Positions 5,461-39,123 of a stretch of DNA of 42,241 nucleotides are shown in pieces (positions within the stretch are counted from its first letter, which is position 1; every line of letters starts with the position of its first letter). Source of the DNA: a virus; IMG/VR virus record IMGVR_UViG_3300020411_000892, positions 1-42,241 of that record. One strand, 5' to 3'. A program made the translations under genes and the position numbers. Below the pieces are notes generated by a model that saw only the letters and a program-made list of their open reading frames with translations, was not told the DNA's origin and ran no database searches.

Positions 5461-5468
5461 TATAAATA
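5461..5468 (+). promoter_or_regulatory. T4-type late promoter before psbA
   Basis: TATAAATA, the exact T4 late-promoter octamer, lies 20 bases after the previous stop. It would transcribe the 27-codon leader ORF and psbA. In T4 such promoters are read by host polymerase with phage gp55, gp33 and gp45; a gp33 candidate is at 20421. Confidence 0.65.
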
Positions 5469-5619: not shown

Positions 5620-6744
5620 ATGGCTCCGCTAACTCTTAAGCGTGGTGCGAAGACTCAAGTTAGTTCTTCCACTATTGCTGTAGAGCAGTCACCATTGCAA
5701 GGATGGAGCGAGTTTTGTGAGTGGGTAACATCCACTGACAATCGTTTGTACGTTGGTTGGTTTGGAGTCTTAATGATTCCTTGTCTTCTAACTGCAGCTA
5801 CTTGTTTCATCGTAGCATTTATCGCTGCTCCTCCTGTCGATATTGACGGGATCCGTGAACCTGTTGCAGGTTCATTAATGTATGGAAACAACATCATCTC
5901 TGGTGCTGTAGTTCCATCATCCAATGCTATTGGAATGCACTTCTATCCCATTTGGGAAGCAGCAACCATCGACGAATGGTTGTACAATGGAGGTCCATAT
6001 CAATTAGTAATCTTCCACTTCCTTATTGGAATCTGTGCTTATATGGGCAGACAGTGGGAGTTATCTTACCGTCTAGGTATGCGTCCTTGGATCTGTGTTG
6101 CATATTCTGCACCAGTATCTGCTGCATTCGCAGTCTTCCTAGTATATCCTTTTGGTCAGGGTTCATTCTCTGATGGTATGCCTCTCGGTATATCAGGTAC
6201 GTTCAACTTTATGTTCGTATTCCAAGCAGAACATAACATTCTGATGCATCCATTCCATATGGCAGGTGTCGCAGGTATGTTCGGAGGAGCATTGTTCTCT
6301 GCAATGCACGGTTCACTTGTTACCTCATCTCTAATCAGAGAAACGACAGAGAATGAGTCTCAAAACTATGGTTACAAGTTCGGACAAGAGGAAGAAACAT
6401 ACAACATCGTAGCTGCACACGGTTACTTTGGTAGATTAATCTTCCAGTATGCTTCATTCAACAACTCTCGTTCGCTCCACTTCTTCTTGGCAGTCTTCCC
6501 TGTTGTCTGCATATGGTTAACCTCTATGGGTATATCCACGATGGCATTCAACCTTAACGGATTCAACTTCAATCAAAGTATCATCGATGCTAATGGTAAG
6601 GTTGTTCCTACGTGGGCAGACGTTCTCAACAGAGCAAACCTAGGTATGGAAGTTATGCACGAGCGTAATGCTCACAACTTCCCTCTTGATCTTGCTGCTG
6701 CTGAGGTTACCGAGGTTGCACTGCTCGCACCTTCAATAGGATGA
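5620..6744 (+). CDS. psbA: Photosystem II D1 protein
   Basis: D1 is the reaction-centre subunit of photosystem II in the thylakoid membrane and the one most rapidly damaged by light; phage copies keep electron transport going during infection. The D1 landmarks are present: VGWFG near the N-terminus, [24 protein letters not shown] (Asp170 region), [12 protein letters not shown] (Glu189, His190, His198), and [17 protein letters not shown] before the processed C-terminal extension. The residue equivalent to position 130 is Gln, as in low-light D1:1. The N-terminus is about 15 residues longer than cyanobacterial D1, and no ATG lies between it and the conserved region. Confidence 0.98.
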
Positions 6745-6900: not shown

Positions 6901-7089
6901 ATGAACAAAGAACAATTCTTTAAAGACCTTCAAGACTGGGAGCGAGAGTACGCTGCTATGGATGTCGAGAGAACCAAGAGAGAAGAAGAGATCCTTAAGG
7001 GTGACCCTATAAAATCACACGAAGGGATGATGTATGGTAGAATGTATGCTGACTGGAAGAAGAGAAAGGGGTATGAACTTGACGTTTAG
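6901..7089 (+). CDS. Small charged protein, unknown (62 aa)
   Basis: The product is a charged, helical protein (MNKEQFFKDLQDWEREY...DWKKRKGYELDV) without Cys or hydrophobic segments. ATG 6901 follows the -10 element, and the alternative upstream start would lie within it. It overlaps the oxygenase gene that follows, so the two are likely co-expressed. No family recognised. Confidence 0.65.
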   Translation: MNKEQFFKDLQDWEREYAAMDVERTKREEEILKGDPIKSHEGMMYGRMYADWKKRKGYELDV

Positions 7090-7651
7090 AAGTATTGATA
7101 GTGCATTTGCTGTACCTATAGTACGTTACACTATTGGTTGTGATCTAGAACCAATACTGGACTTTGCTGATGGTGCAGAGTATAATGTAGGAAGTATAAA
7201 GCAGACGATACATAATCGTCTTCACATACAACCACTCTTTAAGAAATTATTTTCTCACATACAAGAGTGTCTAGATGATTACAAAGATCTGTATCAATAT
7301 GATTGCTACAGAATCAAACCAGTATTATCGTGGATCAATGTTAGTACAGCAAAGGAAGAGCACCACGAACACAATCATCCCAACTCTCTCATCTCAGGTG
7401 TACTCTACCTTAAGAACTGTACTCCCACGTACTTCTCATCACCCGCTAGTGCTGCTCGTACAGGTGTTGTTGTGTTTAACAATCATCCGATGACGTATGA
7501 AGCACAAGGTATAGCAGGTGATCTTATATTATTCCCATCTTATTTGGATCATTACACTGTACCTGGTGGTGAAAGATGTACACTCAGTTTTAATACTATG
7601 CCTGAAGGTATAGTCAACCAAGGAACACTAATGGAAATGGATTATCGATGA
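7073..7651 (+). CDS. 2OG-Fe(II) oxygenase-like protein 1
   Basis: The 192-aa product fits the small phage family of putative 2-oxoglutarate/Fe(II) oxygenases. Recognisable parts are WINV, then H100-N-H102-PNSLISGVLYL, the GDLILFPSYLDH160 strand, and R168-CTLSFN. In this fold the two histidine sites bind iron and the arginine binds 2-oxoglutarate. The usual H-x-D is H-x-H here, as in the other four copies in this window. The substrate is unknown. AAAGGGG precedes the ATG. It shares a tight unit with a small gene and peptide deformylase. Confidence 0.8.
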   Translation: MNLTFRSIDSAFAVPIVRYTIGCDLEPILDFADGAEYNVGSIKQTIHNRLHIQPLFKKLFSHIQECLDDYKDLYQYDCYRIKPVLSWINVSTAKEEHHEHNHPNSLISGVLYLKNCTPTYFSSPASAARTGVVVFNNHPMTYEAQGIAGDLILFPSYLDHYTVPGGERCTLSFNTMPEGIVNQGTLMEMDYR

Positions 7652-21058: not shown

Positions 21059-21994
21059 ATGTCATTCGCAACACTTAAAAAATCCTCAGGCAAGTTTCAA
21101 AATCTTACTAAAGAGATAGAGAAACTCAATAGCTCTGGTAAGCAAACCGACGAGAGACTATGGAAACCAGGGGTTGACAAATCTGGTAACGGATTTGCCA
21201 TTATAAGGTTTCTTCCTCAAGAAAACGCAGACGATCTACCTTGGGCACAAGTTTGGAGTCACGCATTCCAAGGACCAGGAGGTTGGTTGATCGAAAACTG
21301 TCCAACTACTAAGGGTGAAAAATGCCCTGTATGTGCTCACAATAGTACATTGTGGAACAGTGGTAGAGAACAGGACAAGGATGTAGCACGTAAGCAAAAG
21401 CGTAAGCTTTCATACTACGCTAACATCTATGTCGTTAAGGATCCATTAAATCCTGAGAATGAGGGACAAGTATTTTTATACAAGTTTGGCAAACGTATAT
21501 TTGACAAGTTATCTGCACGTATGCAGCCTGATGAGAACGATTATGATCCACAACCAGCGATAAACCCATTTGACCTATGGTCAGGTGCTGATTTTAAACT
21601 TAAAATCAAACAGGTAGCAGGTTACTGGAATTATGATGATTCTACATTTGCTTCCCCTGGTACTCTAGGTGGGTTCGATGACGAAGCTCTTGAGGAGATC
21701 TTTAACAAGACTCATTCACTCAAGGAGTTCACCGATGATTCGAACTTCAAAACTTATGAGGAGCTCGATGGTCGCCTTAAGGCGGTTCTGGGCAGAGCTG
21801 TCAGACCAAAAACATTCGACGCAGAAACCGAGGAGAACGAAGGAGCAATTAATGCCCTTAGATCCGATCCTACTCCTGCAAAGGAGAGTTGGACAGAAGA
21901 CGTTGAAAGTTTCGCAGAGAAGAAAGTTGCAGTATCTGCAACATCTGAAGACGAAGCCTTGAGCTACTTTCAGAAATTAGCTGAAGAGGACTAA
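21059..21994 (+). CDS. 32: Single-stranded DNA-binding protein gp32
   Basis: The 311-aa product matches T4 gp32 in size and plan: a basic N-terminal segment, an OB-fold core and an acidic C-terminal tail (DEALSYFQKLAEED). The zinc site is H68, C81, C89 and C92 (T4 H64, C77, C87, C90). It coats replication and recombination intermediates. The 2OG oxygenase gene follows in a TAATG overlap. Regulation may include the late promoter and hairpin just upstream. Confidence 0.96.
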   Translation: MSFATLKKSSGKFQNLTKEIEKLNSSGKQTDERLWKPGVDKSGNGFAIIRFLPQENADDLPWAQVWSHAFQGPGGWLIENCPTTKGEKCPVCAHNSTLWNSGREQDKDVARKQKRKLSYYANIYVVKDPLNPENEGQVFLYKFGKRIFDKLSARMQPDENDYDPQPAINPFDLWSGADFKLKIKQVAGYWNYDDSTFASPGTLGGFDDEALEEIFNKTHSLKEFTDDSNFKTYEELDGRLKAVLGRAVRPKTFDAETEENEGAINALRSDPTPAKESWTEDVESFAEKKVAVSATSEDEALSYFQKLAEED

Positions 21995-22608
21995 TGTTAC
22001 ACGAACTCTTTCCAGTTCCCGTATGGGAGGAGAATATTGGGGTGCCAGACGGCACCCTTTCGTTTGTCGATGAAATTGTCAAGTATGAACGTATGGGTGC
22101 TTATGGTAACACCAAGAGCATATCCTGTAATAAGCAAATATTGAAGGAAGTCCCAGAACTCGAAAATCACGTTTTTGAGGGAGTTTCCCGATATTTAAGA
22201 AACCACCTTTTAGTCGCACCTAACGTAACTATCGAAATTGTGCGATCTTGGGTGGTTTTGCATTATAAAGGGGATTACTCAGATTTTCATACTCACACGA
22301 ATGCTGTCTGGAGTGGAATATACTATATACAGACAGAACCGAACAGTGGAGATCTATTATTCGACAAAACTGGATTATATCAAAACTGTTTTTTACAGGT
22401 TTTAGAACCTGATACACTAGGATACATAAATGCCACGGCAAAGCATCATAGGTTCCAACCTAAACCAGGAGACCTATTTGTGTTTCCATCTCAGTTGATG
22501 CATAAGGCAGAACCCAACCAGTCCACAAACTGTCGCTATTGCATAGCCTTTGATGTGTTCATACGTGGTACAATAGGTACAAGACACGGAAATGAGGTTA
22601 CACTATGA
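21994..22608 (+). CDS. 2OG-Fe(II) oxygenase-like protein 4
   Basis: The 204-aa product has RSWVVLHYKG, H99-T-H101-TNAVWSGIYY, LFVFPSQLMH170-KAEPN and R181-YCIAFDVF. The family order is clear, but AFDVF replaces the usual SFN end, a mark of divergence. It begins within the gp32 stop and overlaps the His-rich exported gene, so these three are probably co-translated. Substrate unknown. Confidence 0.8.
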   Translation: MLHELFPVPVWEENIGVPDGTLSFVDEIVKYERMGAYGNTKSISCNKQILKEVPELENHVFEGVSRYLRNHLLVAPNVTIEIVRSWVVLHYKGDYSDFHTHTNAVWSGIYYIQTEPNSGDLLFDKTGLYQNCFLQVLEPDTLGYINATAKHHRFQPKPGDLFVFPSQLMHKAEPNQSTNCRYCIAFDVFIRGTIGTRHGNEVTL

Positions 22609-22922
22609 AATTTCTCCCATTGTTGGCGATCCCTTTCCTAGCAGCACCTGTTCACGCAGGTCATCGTACAACCTACTGGACTAAACCAACATTGGACGGA
22701 GCAGAAGTTACTCCATCTCATTGTGTTAAAGATCCTCAATTTGGTTGGAACTGCTGGTATAAAAGGGTAGAAAAACGCAGAAGACATCGCCACCACCACC
22801 ATCATTGGGGTGAGACGCATTATTTACCTTGGTATAATACTACACCAGTATTCCGACCAAACAAGTGGAATCATCACGGAGTACCTTGCTACATCTATAA
22901 AGATGATAATTGGTGTTTCTAG
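22605..22922 (+). CDS. Exported His-rich small protein
   Basis: The first 18 residues (MKFLPLLAIPFLAAPVHA) look like a signal peptide with cleavage before GHRT. The mature part of about 87 aa has four cysteines (C40, C50, C95, C104), which could form two disulfides, and a basic, His-rich stretch (KRRRHRHHHHHW) at residues 58-68. Metal or polyanion binding at the membrane or cell surface is plausible. No family recognised. It overlaps the fourth oxygenase by four bases. Confidence 0.75.
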   Translation: MKFLPLLAIPFLAAPVHAGHRTTYWTKPTLDGAEVTPSHCVKDPQFGWNCWYKRVEKRRRHRHHHHHWGETHYLPWYNTTPVFRPNKWNHHGVPCYIYKDDNWCF

Positions 22923-23719
22923 TAACCGCTTGAGGTTTCTGCTGTGGTGGTTGTTTCTACTGCTGTTCCTGCAGACGCAGAACCTTTACTTACAAGTGCC
23001 GTGCTAGAACCACTACCAGATGCTGACCCAGTTGAAGCAGTGCTTTGACTGGGTTTGTTGTATTTGGGTAATCCTATAAACTCTTCTGCAAGAGATCCTT
23101 GTGTCTTCTTATATCCTTTCTCATCAACCTCTGCATTAGGAAGATACATTGCTAGTTTCTTGAACTCAGCGATGAAATCAGTCAAATATTGTGGGCGAAG
23201 CAGGTATATATTTCTCTTTACTTCATTAATCTTTGATTCATATGCATAGTATGATACAGGTATGCGACTTGATGCTGCAGGTACGATACTACCATCAGGT
23301 TTGATATATTGGAAGTCTTCAGATACCTGATACCCAGATTTTAGAAGAATACTACCATCAGTATGTACGTATTCTAATGTCTCATAGTGTCTAACACCTT
23401 CCACTGAACCATACTTATCTTCAACGTACTTATAGAGATCCTCACGGTTCATTGGCCAGTCTTCATTAATATTGATTATATTATTGACAAGCAATATAAC
23501 CCAATCTAGACCAGAGTCTTTATAGAACTTGTATGCTATCTGATCAGGTCTTTCATTTTCACCTATTTCATACTGTTGAAACCCTAAAAGAGCACCTTGT
23601 AGTTCGTCACGGATTTTAATTCTTCTGAATATATTAACCGCAAGTTGATAAGGTTGAAAACCATCAATTCTAGTCTTATTGCGGACATATACCTTGGGTA
23701 GATACTTAAAGTATGCCAT
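22919..23719 (-). CDS. 53: Baseplate wedge protein gp53
   Basis: The 266-aa product begins MAYFKYLPKVYVRNK and contains the gp53 hallmark ERPDQIAYKFYKDSGLDWVILLVNNI (LysM-like wedge core), which in T4 locks wedges together around the hub. The last about 50 residues are low-complexity Ser, Thr, Gly and Ala, unlike T4 gp53, and may be a disordered extension. It is transcribed after gp48 on the minus strand, one base apart. Its end overlaps the His-rich gene by four bases tail to tail. Confidence 0.88.
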   Translation of the reverse strand: MAYFKYLPKVYVRNKTRIDGFQPYQLAVNIFRRIKIRDELQGALLGFQQYEIGENERPDQIAYKFYKDSGLDWVILLVNNIININEDWPMNREDLYKYVEDKYGSVEGVRHYETLEYVHTDGSILLKSGYQVSEDFQYIKPDGSIVPAASSRIPVSYYAYESKINEVKRNIYLLRPQYLTDFIAEFKKLAMYLPNAEVDEKGYKKTQGSLAEEFIGLPKYNKPSQSTASTGSASGSGSSTALVSKGSASAGTAVETTTTAETSSGY

Positions 23720-23720
23720 A

Positions 23721-24803
23721 CTATCTTATTTCGTTTTTGGTGAGGAATGCAGTTTCATCGAAGTTTAAATTCAAGTTAAATGCAGCAGGACCATAATCCG
23801 TAGCACTATCATATTCATCTTTCAATGAGTTGTAAGGACCATCTGGAGTTAGATCCATACTAAGGTTAGTTAGTACACATTTCACAGGGAATTGCATAAT
23901 TCTTGCTAATCTAGCAGGTTGCCCTGCCATTAGATCCAGATCACCATCTTCATTAACTTTACCTTCTACCCTTGCAATACTTAGTCTGAAATAGTCAGGT
24001 ATGGTAAGGAAACGGTTGCTACCACCACCAGACTGACTACCTAGTATATTTGCAGCAGTATCATTGATCGCTGGTTCTGCTCCAGGATTTGCACTTGCTG
24101 CTGGATCATCACCCCATTGTAATTCTTCAGGAGTACCATCATTTGTTCCAGGTAACATCGCTTTACGAAGAATATGTACTATTCTGTAGAGTTCTGCTGC
24201 TTCCTGTCTATTCTTCGGAGCACACTTAAAGTTAAAGTTGTGTGATCTATAGGATGTACCTCTAAATGTTGTTTCTTGATATGGGTTGAAAATCTTTTTA
24301 GTTGTTAGTGCAGCGATTGAGTTAGCATCTAATCCATCTGCTTGTAGTCCTAGACCACTATTTACTGTACCTATAGCAGATCCTACAGCATTCATTATAA
24401 ACTCTGGTTTTGCAGCACCAGCAGTTTGCTGTAATTGTTGTACTAAGTTCCCTTGTAAGTTACCTTTATCAGCAGCACTTGTACCCATCCCTTGCTTCAC
24501 CATATTCATTACACCTAGTCCTGCAGCACCTAGAGTAGTTCTAGCATACTCAGCACCATATTCTTCTTTTAATCCTTGAGGTAAATATAAATAAATAGTT
24601 TTATAAAGAGCACCTTCATTACTACCACCTCCACCTATGTGCTTGTAGGGATTACCCCTATCCGAACTATATACTTTTATCACCAAATAATCGACTACCT
24701 TGGTACCAAAAGAATCCGCATCACGGATTGACGCACTGATTTGATCATTACCAGGTACTTGGGTTGGAATCGATCTTGGATATACTAATGGAGCATCTGA
24801 CAT
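23721..24803 (-). CDS. 48: Baseplate tail-tube cap gp48
   Basis: The 360-aa product is close to T4 gp48 (about 364 aa). It contains the tail-tube family segment NPYQETTFRGTSYRSHNFNF and a hydrophobic Gly/Ala stretch in the middle. It caps the baseplate hub to start the tail tube with gp54. Its start codon directly touches that of gp4 on the other strand. A minus-strand TATAAATA at 24884-24891, inside gp4, gives a promoter about 80 bases upstream. Confidence 0.85.
   Translation of the reverse strand: MSDAPLVYPRSIPTQVPGNDQISASIRDADSFGTKVVDYLVIKVYSSDRGNPYKHIGGGGSNEGALYKTIYLYLPQGLKEEYGAEYARTTLGAAGLGVMNMVKQGMGTSAADKGNLQGNLVQQLQQTAGAAKPEFIMNAVGSAIGTVNSGLGLQADGLDANSIAALTTKKIFNPYQETTFRGTSYRSHNFNFKCAPKNRQEAAELYRIVHILRKAMLPGTNDGTPEELQWGDDPAASANPGAEPAINDTAANILGSQSGGGSNRFLTIPDYFRLSIARVEGKVNEDGDLDLMAGQPARLARIMQFPVKCVLTNLSMDLTPDGPYNSLKDEYDSATDYGPAAFNLNLNFDETAFLTKNEIR
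24586..24593 (+). promoter_or_regulatory. Candidate late promoter (+) inside gp48
   Basis: TATAAATA on the plus strand lies within gp48 coding sequence (antisense), about 210 bases before gp4. With no gap between gp48 and gp4, it is the nearest octamer to start the gp4 to gp54 rightward unit. In coding terms it is the complement of codons for IYLYL, so chance is possible. Confidence 0.45.
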
Positions 24804-25253
24804 ATGCCGAAAAAGAAATCTTATTACTCAGGAAGATTCAGACCTAGTAACCCAGGCAAGTATAAAGGTGATCCTACAAACATTATTTATAGATCTTCTT
24901 GGGAGAAGAAAGTAATGATTTGGTGTGACGTTAATTCTAACGTTCTAAAGTGGTCTTCTGAGGAGATAATTATACCTTATAGATCACCTATTGATGGTAA
25001 AGTTCATAGATATTTCCCAGATTTCTATGTTAAAGGTAGATTAAAAGGTAGTGGTGTAAAAGAGTATATTATTGAGGTTAAACCTGCTGCTCAGTGCAAA
25101 AGACCTAAACCTACTACTAAAGTGACTAAAAGATATATTAATGAGGTTAAGACTTATAGTGTTAATCAGGCAAAGTGGAAAGCAGCAAGATCCTATGGTA
25201 AGGATCGTAAGCAGGAATTTGTAGTATTAACGGAGAAGGATTTAGGGCTATGA
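24804..25253 (+). CDS. 4: Head completion protein gp4
   Basis: The 149-aa product aligns from memory with T4 gp4: YYSGRFRPSNPGKYKGDPTN, IIYRSSWEKKVMIWCD, LKWSSEEIIIPY and HRYFPDFYVK. In T4, gp4 completes filled heads before tail joining and has a nuclease-like fold (the IIEVKP segment fits the D/E-x-K part). Its start abuts that of gp48 (CAT-ATG), so its own promoter must lie in gp48. It overlaps the next gene by four bases. Confidence 0.93.
   Translation: MPKKKSYYSGRFRPSNPGKYKGDPTNIIYRSSWEKKVMIWCDVNSNVLKWSSEEIIIPYRSPIDGKVHRYFPDFYVKGRLKGSGVKEYIIEVKPAAQCKRPKPTTKVTKRYINEVKTYSVNQAKWKAARSYGKDRKQEFVVLTEKDLGL
24884..24891 (-). promoter_or_regulatory. Candidate late promoter (-) inside gp4
   Basis: TATTTATA on the plus strand is TATAAATA on the minus strand, about 80 bases before the gp48 start and inside gp4. 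It is correctly oriented to transcribe gp48 and gp53. Confidence 0.5.
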
Positions 25254-25720
25254 GCCTATTTGAGGACATTAAAGACCTATCAGGAGGTAAATCTAATTCA
25301 CCATCTTGGTGGAGAAGTCAATTCCAGTATGGATTGGAAGGATTGACACCATCTGCTGAGCCTGGCACTGTTGGAAGGATGCTTTTCTTTACATATAGAG
25401 CAGAATATGCTGAAAAGTATAGGTTTTGGGATGTATATCCTTTAGTTTATGTCCTAGGAGAAGACTCTACTCACTTCTGGGGTGGTAACTTACATTATGT
25501 TGAACCAGAGTATAGAACAATCGTTGGAAGTGACCTTGCTTCTGGTAATAGTATCGTACCCAACGAAACCTTGCATAAATACTTGAGAAAGAATGTTTTA
25601 TCCGCTACTTATGACGTACCCAGTACTGAGTGGCCTGATGTGGGGTTGATCCCCTGTGAACAGTTTGTTACTACTATTAATGGTAGGAATATTCCAATTC
25701 CATCGAAACACGTTTACTAA
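25250..25720 (+). CDS. Conserved tail or head gene between gp4 and gp54
   Basis: The 156-aa protein carries PGTVGRMLFFTYRAEYAEKY, then DVYPLVYVLGE and GGNLHYVEPEYR, a pattern I recall from conserved T4-like phage proteins of uncertain role. It overlaps gp4 and gp54 at both ends, so it is expressed with them. A baseplate or neck role is inferred only from position. Confidence 0.6.
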   Translation: MSLFEDIKDLSGGKSNSPSWWRSQFQYGLEGLTPSAEPGTVGRMLFFTYRAEYAEKYRFWDVYPLVYVLGEDSTHFWGGNLHYVEPEYRTIVGSDLASGNSIVPNETLHKYLRKNVLSATYDVPSTEWPDVGLIPCEQFVTTINGRNIPIPSKHVY

Positions 25721-38343: not shown

Positions 38344-39093
38344 TTATTTATCCTCCTTCGGCCAGTCCTGATTTAAGAATTTGGGTGGTGCCCAAAGTAA
38401 TGAATGCTTACCTACCCATTGTCCTTCTAGTGAATATTCACCTGTTTTATGTACTCTTATATTAAGACCGATTGATGTTTTCTGTTCGTGTGAACCATTA
38501 GGTGTAGTAGAGTGCTCTAACCAACCAGGAAATAATAGTAAAGTATTAGGGAAGGTTTCAACTGCCATATCCCTTTGTGTTGCGAAGCATTCTAAATATG
38601 CTTGACTTAATGGCGAATGAAAGTTTATAATACCGTTGTGCTGGCGGGTTCTATGATAATAGACACCTGCTAGTTCCCATCCTGGGTGTAAATGTTTTTC
38701 TTGACAAGTACCCTTAGGATATAGATTCAACCAAGACTGAGGTATTTCAAAATTATCGTGCCCTATGTAATGCGTACAGCATTCTTTAATAAAGGTCGTT
38801 AGATTAGGTACTTTGTCTGCATAACCGCCAAGAAAATTTCGTCTTTCTCCAGTATCGTATACTGGATCAACATCAACGTTAATTTCTTGTTGTTCTTCTT
38901 CTCTAATATAGTTTATGCAGTCTTCTACTTCATCATCTATTGCTGCCCAATTATGCTCGTATCTCACTACAGTAGAAGGGAACAGATCCATTACTGTCTG
39001 GTTGATTCCTCCCGTTGTTAGCTTCTCGGCTCTTGCCTTTGCTACAATATCTTCTCCTCCTCTGGAGGATGTTGCTCCTGTATTCTTTACCAT
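38344..39093 (-). CDS. 2OG-Fe(II) oxygenase-like protein 5
   Basis: The 249-aa product is the longest copy and the only one on the minus strand. It has WLNLYPKGT, H134-L-H136-PGWELAGVYYHR, LFPGWLEH194-STTPN, and at the arginine site K205-TSIGLN, a change from R that could alter 2-oxoglutarate binding. N-terminal 35 residues and a C-terminal 40-aa tail (LEGQWVGKHSLLWAPPKF) are extra. It is transcribed from its own gap, where a minus-strand AATAAATA lies at 39116-39123. Confidence 0.8.
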   Translation of the reverse strand: MVKNTGATSSRGGEDIVAKARAEKLTTGGINQTVMDLFPSTVVRYEHNWAAIDDEVEDCINYIREEEQQEINVDVDPVYDTGERRNFLGGYADKVPNLTTFIKECCTHYIGHDNFEIPQSWLNLYPKGTCQEKHLHPGWELAGVYYHRTRQHNGIINFHSPLSQAYLECFATQRDMAVETFPNTLLLFPGWLEHSTTPNGSHEQKTSIGLNIRVHKTGEYSLEGQWVGKHSLLWAPPKFLNQDWPKEDK

Positions 39094-39115: not shown

Positions 39116-39123
39116 TATTTATT
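39116..39123 (-). promoter_or_regulatory. Possible late promoter (-), AATAAATA
   Basis: TATTTATT on the plus strand reads AATAAATA on the minus strand, about 23 bases before the oxygenase start in the divergent gap. One base differs from TATAAATA. Confidence 0.4.

Follow-up and report, generated by a model that had tools for sequence, protein, structure and literature searches.

The late promoters of phage T4, which depend on gp55, gp33 and gp45, consist of an 8-bp box with the octamer TATAAATA that lies one helical turn or so ahead of the transcription start; AT-rich DNA follows the box directly, there is no -35 element, gp55 reads the box, and the promoters stand upstream of late structural genes (PMC2988020). 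Cyanomyoviruses such as S-PM2 and Syn9 use NATAAATA, a version of this motif whose first base is free, as their late box, and g55, g33 and g45 have been reported in all sequenced cyanomyoviruses (PMC2984593). A survey of 16 cyanophage genomes accepted only boxes that were intergenic or lay within 10 bp of the upstream gene (PMC3037559), a rule under which boxes embedded in a neighboring gene would go unlisted. The DNA analyzed here, called the window throughout, is a virus record from IMG/VR, 42,241 bases long, and represents a fragment of a T4-like cyanophage with psbA, gp32, gp48, gp53 and gp4. Viruses of this group are marine and have cyanobacteria as their hosts. At the divergent gp48/gp4 junction of the window, two putative late promoters share with those of T4 the octamer, the AT-rich DNA just downstream and the position upstream of late structural genes, and they share with those of S-PM2 and Syn9 the virus family and the motif. 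In contrast to the T4 promoters, these boxes are embedded, in antisense orientation, in the opposite late gene, with zero intergenic DNA between the genes and with predicted leaders of ~75 and ~205 nt. The promoter type is known; the proposed placement is unusual and is well supported by comparison with relatives.

The gp48/gp4 junction and its octamers

The gene for gp48, the baseplate tail tube cap (23721-24803, minus strand; 360 aa; PHROG 230, E 6.4e-68), is followed in its unit by that for gp53, a baseplate wedge subunit (22919-23719, minus strand; PHROG 232, E 6.5e-77), and the two form an isolated minus-strand pair (22919-24803) in surroundings that are mostly plus-strand. The first gene of the plus-strand unit encodes gp4, the head closure (completion) protein (24804-25253; 149 aa; PHROG 218, E 3.8e-61). 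With gp48 starting at 24803 on the minus strand and gp4 at 24804 on the plus strand, the two ATGs stand back to back in CATATG (24801-24806), and the genes touch with no intergenic DNA, just as the original prediction had described. In both frames, the stretch back to the upstream stop contains no further start, and the protein matches set in within the first few residues; the zero gap is therefore genuine and not a product of annotation.

The octamer TATAAATA occurs at 24586-24593 on the plus strand, inside gp48, and at 24884-24891 on the minus strand, inside gp4. The claim that each octamer lies in the other's gene and is oriented for the opposite one therefore holds at both positions, and, gp48/gp53 and gp4 being virion assembly genes, both boxes precede late genes and point toward them. 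The minus box covers gp4 codons 27-30 (I-I-Y-R) and has its 5′ end 88 nt upstream of the gp48 ATG; it would serve gp48-gp53. The plus box belongs to a double box, TATAAATAAATA (24586-24597), which is antisense to I-Y-L-Y codons 69-73 of gp48, lies 218 nt upstream of the gp4 ATG and would serve gp4.

It had also been cautioned that some octamers are expected by chance and that position is the evidence, and the counts agree: the whole window has six octamers vs 3.5 expected (at least six in 16 of 100 shuffles) and 14 copies of NATAAATA vs 12.8 expected. Neither count is an enrichment, and since the octamer count is not significant, only position is informative. The remaining four octamers are found 33-159 nt upstream of plus-strand genes, psbA and gp32 among them. 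The copy at 5461-5468, 159 nt upstream of psbA (5620-6744), fits a published late-sigma site ahead of psbA in cyanomyoviruses (PMC5931967). On the minus strand there are only three copies of NATAAATA in 42 kb, two of which are upstream of the two clear minus-strand units: the first would feed gp48-gp53, and the other clear minus-strand gene (38344-39093) has one copy 30 nt upstream and one at its 3′ end. That gene encodes a 2OG-Fe(II) oxygenase, and its own upstream box reads AATAAATA (39116-39123, with the distance counted to the ATG); two further 2OG-Fe(II) oxygenase genes are present in the window (7034-7651 and 21994-22608). An early-promoter reading is not favored by a sigma-70 scan of 22400-25400, which returned 5 sites vs 9.8 expected from shuffles, none of them placed for gp48 or gp4.

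Taken with the comparison below, these positions make it very likely that both octamers are the -10 boxes of T4-type (gp55) late promoters, embedded in the opposite genes and serving the divergent gp48-gp53 (minus) and gp4-onward (plus) units. With gene identities and positions established by computation, we infer gp55 use, start sites and promoter activity as follows. Both octamers would be recognized by host RNA polymerase carrying gp55, the phage's late sigma factor. With no intergenic DNA left, the boxes sit within the coding sequence of the opposite gene, and synonymous codon choice at Ile-Tyr would hold them there, coding-strand ATT TAT being ATAAAT on the other strand. Starts placed 13 nt from the 5′ end of each box, according to the one-helical-turn spacing of T4 (PMC2988020), would fall near 24599 on the plus strand and near 24878 on the minus strand, giving a gp4 leader of ~205 nt and a gp48 leader of ~75 nt. 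Over the 12 nt downstream of the box in abutting loci, the AT fraction is 0.66 for the minus box and 0.70 for the plus box (0.66 for boxes in gaps); given 60% AT for the window as a whole, this excess is modest. Upstream of the box, a 12-nt stretch is conserved at the minus site, where it also encodes protein, and is not conserved at the plus site.

Box location across related cyanophages

The comparison drew on 268 gp4 loci, 188 of them distinct, taken from phages in IMG/VR and GenBank, and most fall into one of three layouts, although the gap class is uncertain for some loci owing to start-codon choice. In layout A, gp48 and gp4 are divergent and abutting with a gap of -2 to +5 nt (n = 47 distinct; P-RSM6, S-WAM1, S-SZBM1 and P-TIM40 are included), and strictly abutting relatives all have gaps of -2 to +4 nt. 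Layout B is divergent with a gap, commonly ~36-46 nt (n = 41; Syn9, where it measures 37 nt, Syn19, P-SSM4 and P-RSM4). In layout C, gp4 is on the strand of gp48 and diverges from a tail-tube-like gene (n = 67; S-CAM4, S-CAM9, S-BM3 and S-CREM1). A few loci have gp48/gp4 gaps of 10 or 25 nt.

Box location exchanges with the presence of a gap. In abutting loci, the minus NATAAATA is inside gp4 in 46 of 47, the plus NATAAATA is inside gp48 in 38 of 47 and junction boxes are seen in just 1-2 of 47, counts that still include two loci (L246 and L045) misclassified as abutting through alternative start codons and left out of the later codon test and the later plus-box site/cluster test. Gapped loci have the same genes, the same divergence and both boxes pointing across the junction, face to face in Syn9 and Syn19; however, their boxes, with the pattern N[AC]TAAATA, flank a ~40-nt gap at the start codons, whereas those of abutting loci are 70-330 nt inside the genes. 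The minus box is at the junction in all 41 gapped loci and the plus box in 34; a plus box inside gp48 is found in only one of the 41, and 17 have a junction box together with a minus box inside gp4. Same-strand loci have a plus box in the gap in all 67 cases, a minus box at the gp4 site in only three, and a plus box inside gp48 in 2 of 66. In many of them (L258, L261, L262, L266, L267 and others), the divergence point has moved to the junction of gp4 and the tail-tube-like gene with late boxes still in the gap. Among the short gaps, the 25-nt loci (L016, L225 and L231) place GATAAATA in the gap and TATAAATA inside gp4 and lack a plus box in gp48, and the 10-nt loci (L111-L114 and L116) mostly have CATAAATA at the gp4 start together with a box in gp4.

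Octamers that are not conserved while the divergence is kept had been named beforehand as counting against the original prediction. Taken literally, that is what the gapped relatives display, but their boxes have been relocated into the gap and not lost. Comparison across related cyanophages strongly supports the prediction that each octamer is a late promoter for the opposite gene. On the gp4 protein tree, abutting loci cluster together, with only 4-5 layout changes, so the association between layout and boxes rests on few independent origins, and a pairs test of layout vs boxes on this tree comprised only four pairs and had no power. Codon invariance at the minus box and site turnover at the plus box are stronger evidence than this association.

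Predicted leader overlap and the constraint on each box

Given T4 late-promoter spacing, a region of ~280 nt (24599-24878, both strands) is predicted to lie in both 5′ leaders. An antisense overlap of about 300 bases had been foreseen, and the geometry gives nearly that length if initiation occurs at these positions; the further idea that the overlap could regulate the two arms is unsupported, because, in relatives of the same layout in which both boxes can be placed, the predicted length is anywhere from 71 to 388 nt, and it nearly vanishes in gapped phages, where boxes face each other within ~40 nt. We therefore consider it unlikely that the relative amounts of baseplate and head-completion proteins are controlled by complementary gp48 and gp4 leaders or by collisions between polymerases from the two facing promoters, even though the overlap is forced by the geometry if both boxes fire and even though antisense transcription is known in a cyanomyovirus from the RNA CfrI of S-PM2 (PMC2984593). 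CfrI has been detected as an RNA of its own that runs antisense to psbA and to a homing endonuclease gene, whereas here an overlap of mRNA leaders is only predicted and follows from the layout alone. A variable length is also the expectation if only the presence of the promoters is selected. The fuller version, in which reciprocal embedded late promoters evolved at the zero-gap junction with a leader overlap of ~70-390 nt and facing polymerases balancing the two protein classes, is improbable as well; the overlap from facing starts would most likely be a by-product of packing.

The plus box in gp48 is exact in 38 rather than all 47 abutting loci and its site moves, with no exact copy in gp48 of six strictly abutting loci (L190, L014, L103, L108, L119 and L030), and the closest relatives of the window (L095 and L088) have retained just the AATAAATA half of the double box. 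The predicted gp4 leader of the window is long relative to its other boxes, which counts against the promoter reading, and a synonymous shuffle alone yields a box in 29% of abutting loci. One could thus propose that only the minus box in gp4 is real, that the gp48 octamer arises by chance from AT-rich Ile-Tyr codons, and that transcripts reading through from the gp32 region supply gp4. We find this unlikely. With protein and codon pool kept in the shuffle, the plus box is present in 38 of 46 abutting loci vs 13.4 expected, and by 60%-identity cluster in 18.0 of 24 vs 6.8 expected (binomial P 3e-6); gp48 has a plus box in only 1 of 41 gapped relatives, and it goes without one in the lineage whose box is in the 25-nt gap. 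Across abutting loci the boxes are at three non-homologous Ile-Tyr sites, so the plus box was either gained more than once or moved. Read-through itself could be stopped by a plus-strand hairpin inside gp53, antisense to that gene (23025-23055; 14 pairs, z -5.2), which is nearly unchanged in many relatives where the surrounding identity is ~76% and is altered in two (L130 and L220). This hairpin is a candidate terminator of the gp32 unit, or it may reflect coding constraint. If it ends the upstream plus-strand transcript, gp4 would need its own promoter, and from 21059 to gp4 the only plus-strand NATAAATA is the one in gp48.

The minus box is kept in gp4 by selection. Codons 27-29 (Ile-Ile-Tyr) are ATT ATT TAT in 44 of 44 abutting loci, whose protein identity goes down to 55% with a median of 69%. 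On a tree built without gp4 codons 23-33, these codons have undergone 0 synonymous steps vs 2-16 at other conserved columns, codon 93 excepted. A constraint from mRNA structure, from translation or from some non-promoter DNA-binding site would fit the observations that synonymous conservation reaches somewhat past the octamer (codons 23-32) and that codon 93 is invariant too. Such a constraint is nonetheless very improbable as the explanation. The invariant core is exactly ATAAATA, and the first base N upstream of it varies, as in the NATAAATA reported for S-PM2 (PMC2984593); moreover, the conservation is lost where gp4 and gp48 share a strand, with the codon triple in only 4 of the 39 same-strand loci that have I-I-Y and absent also from those on the abutting side of the gp4 tree. 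Codon 93 (25080-25082) is Lys AAA in 44 of 44 abutting and 69 of 70 same-strand loci, and the abutting-loci tree shows no synonymous change there; in contrast to the box codons, it hardly varies in either layout examined. The unremarkable whole-window counts are in keeping with a reading of the two octamers as chance matches, devoid of promoter function, in AT-rich coding DNA. That reading is scarcely credible, since it is contradicted at this locus by zero synonymous steps at three successive codons, 46 of 47 conservation and the swap with boxes in gaps.

Probable late promoters within coding genes

In the searchable, mostly non-subscription literature, no description of this junction was found. 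A transcriptome study of Syn9 would reportedly concern a gapped phage. In the main text of the RNA-seq papers on S-PM2 (PMC5931967) and P-HM2 (PMC5082946), we found no statement on the gp48/gp4 junction. From the comparison of layouts, T4-type late promoters have very probably relocated into each other's genes at this locus. When intergenic DNA is squeezed out, regulatory signals can, on this evidence, relocate in full to the opposite strand of protein-coding genes and be kept there by synonymous codons. Intergenic-only promoter surveys of these phages would then undercount late promoters. The natural series of gapped, 25-nt, 10-nt and abutting junctions makes promoter relocation directly testable.
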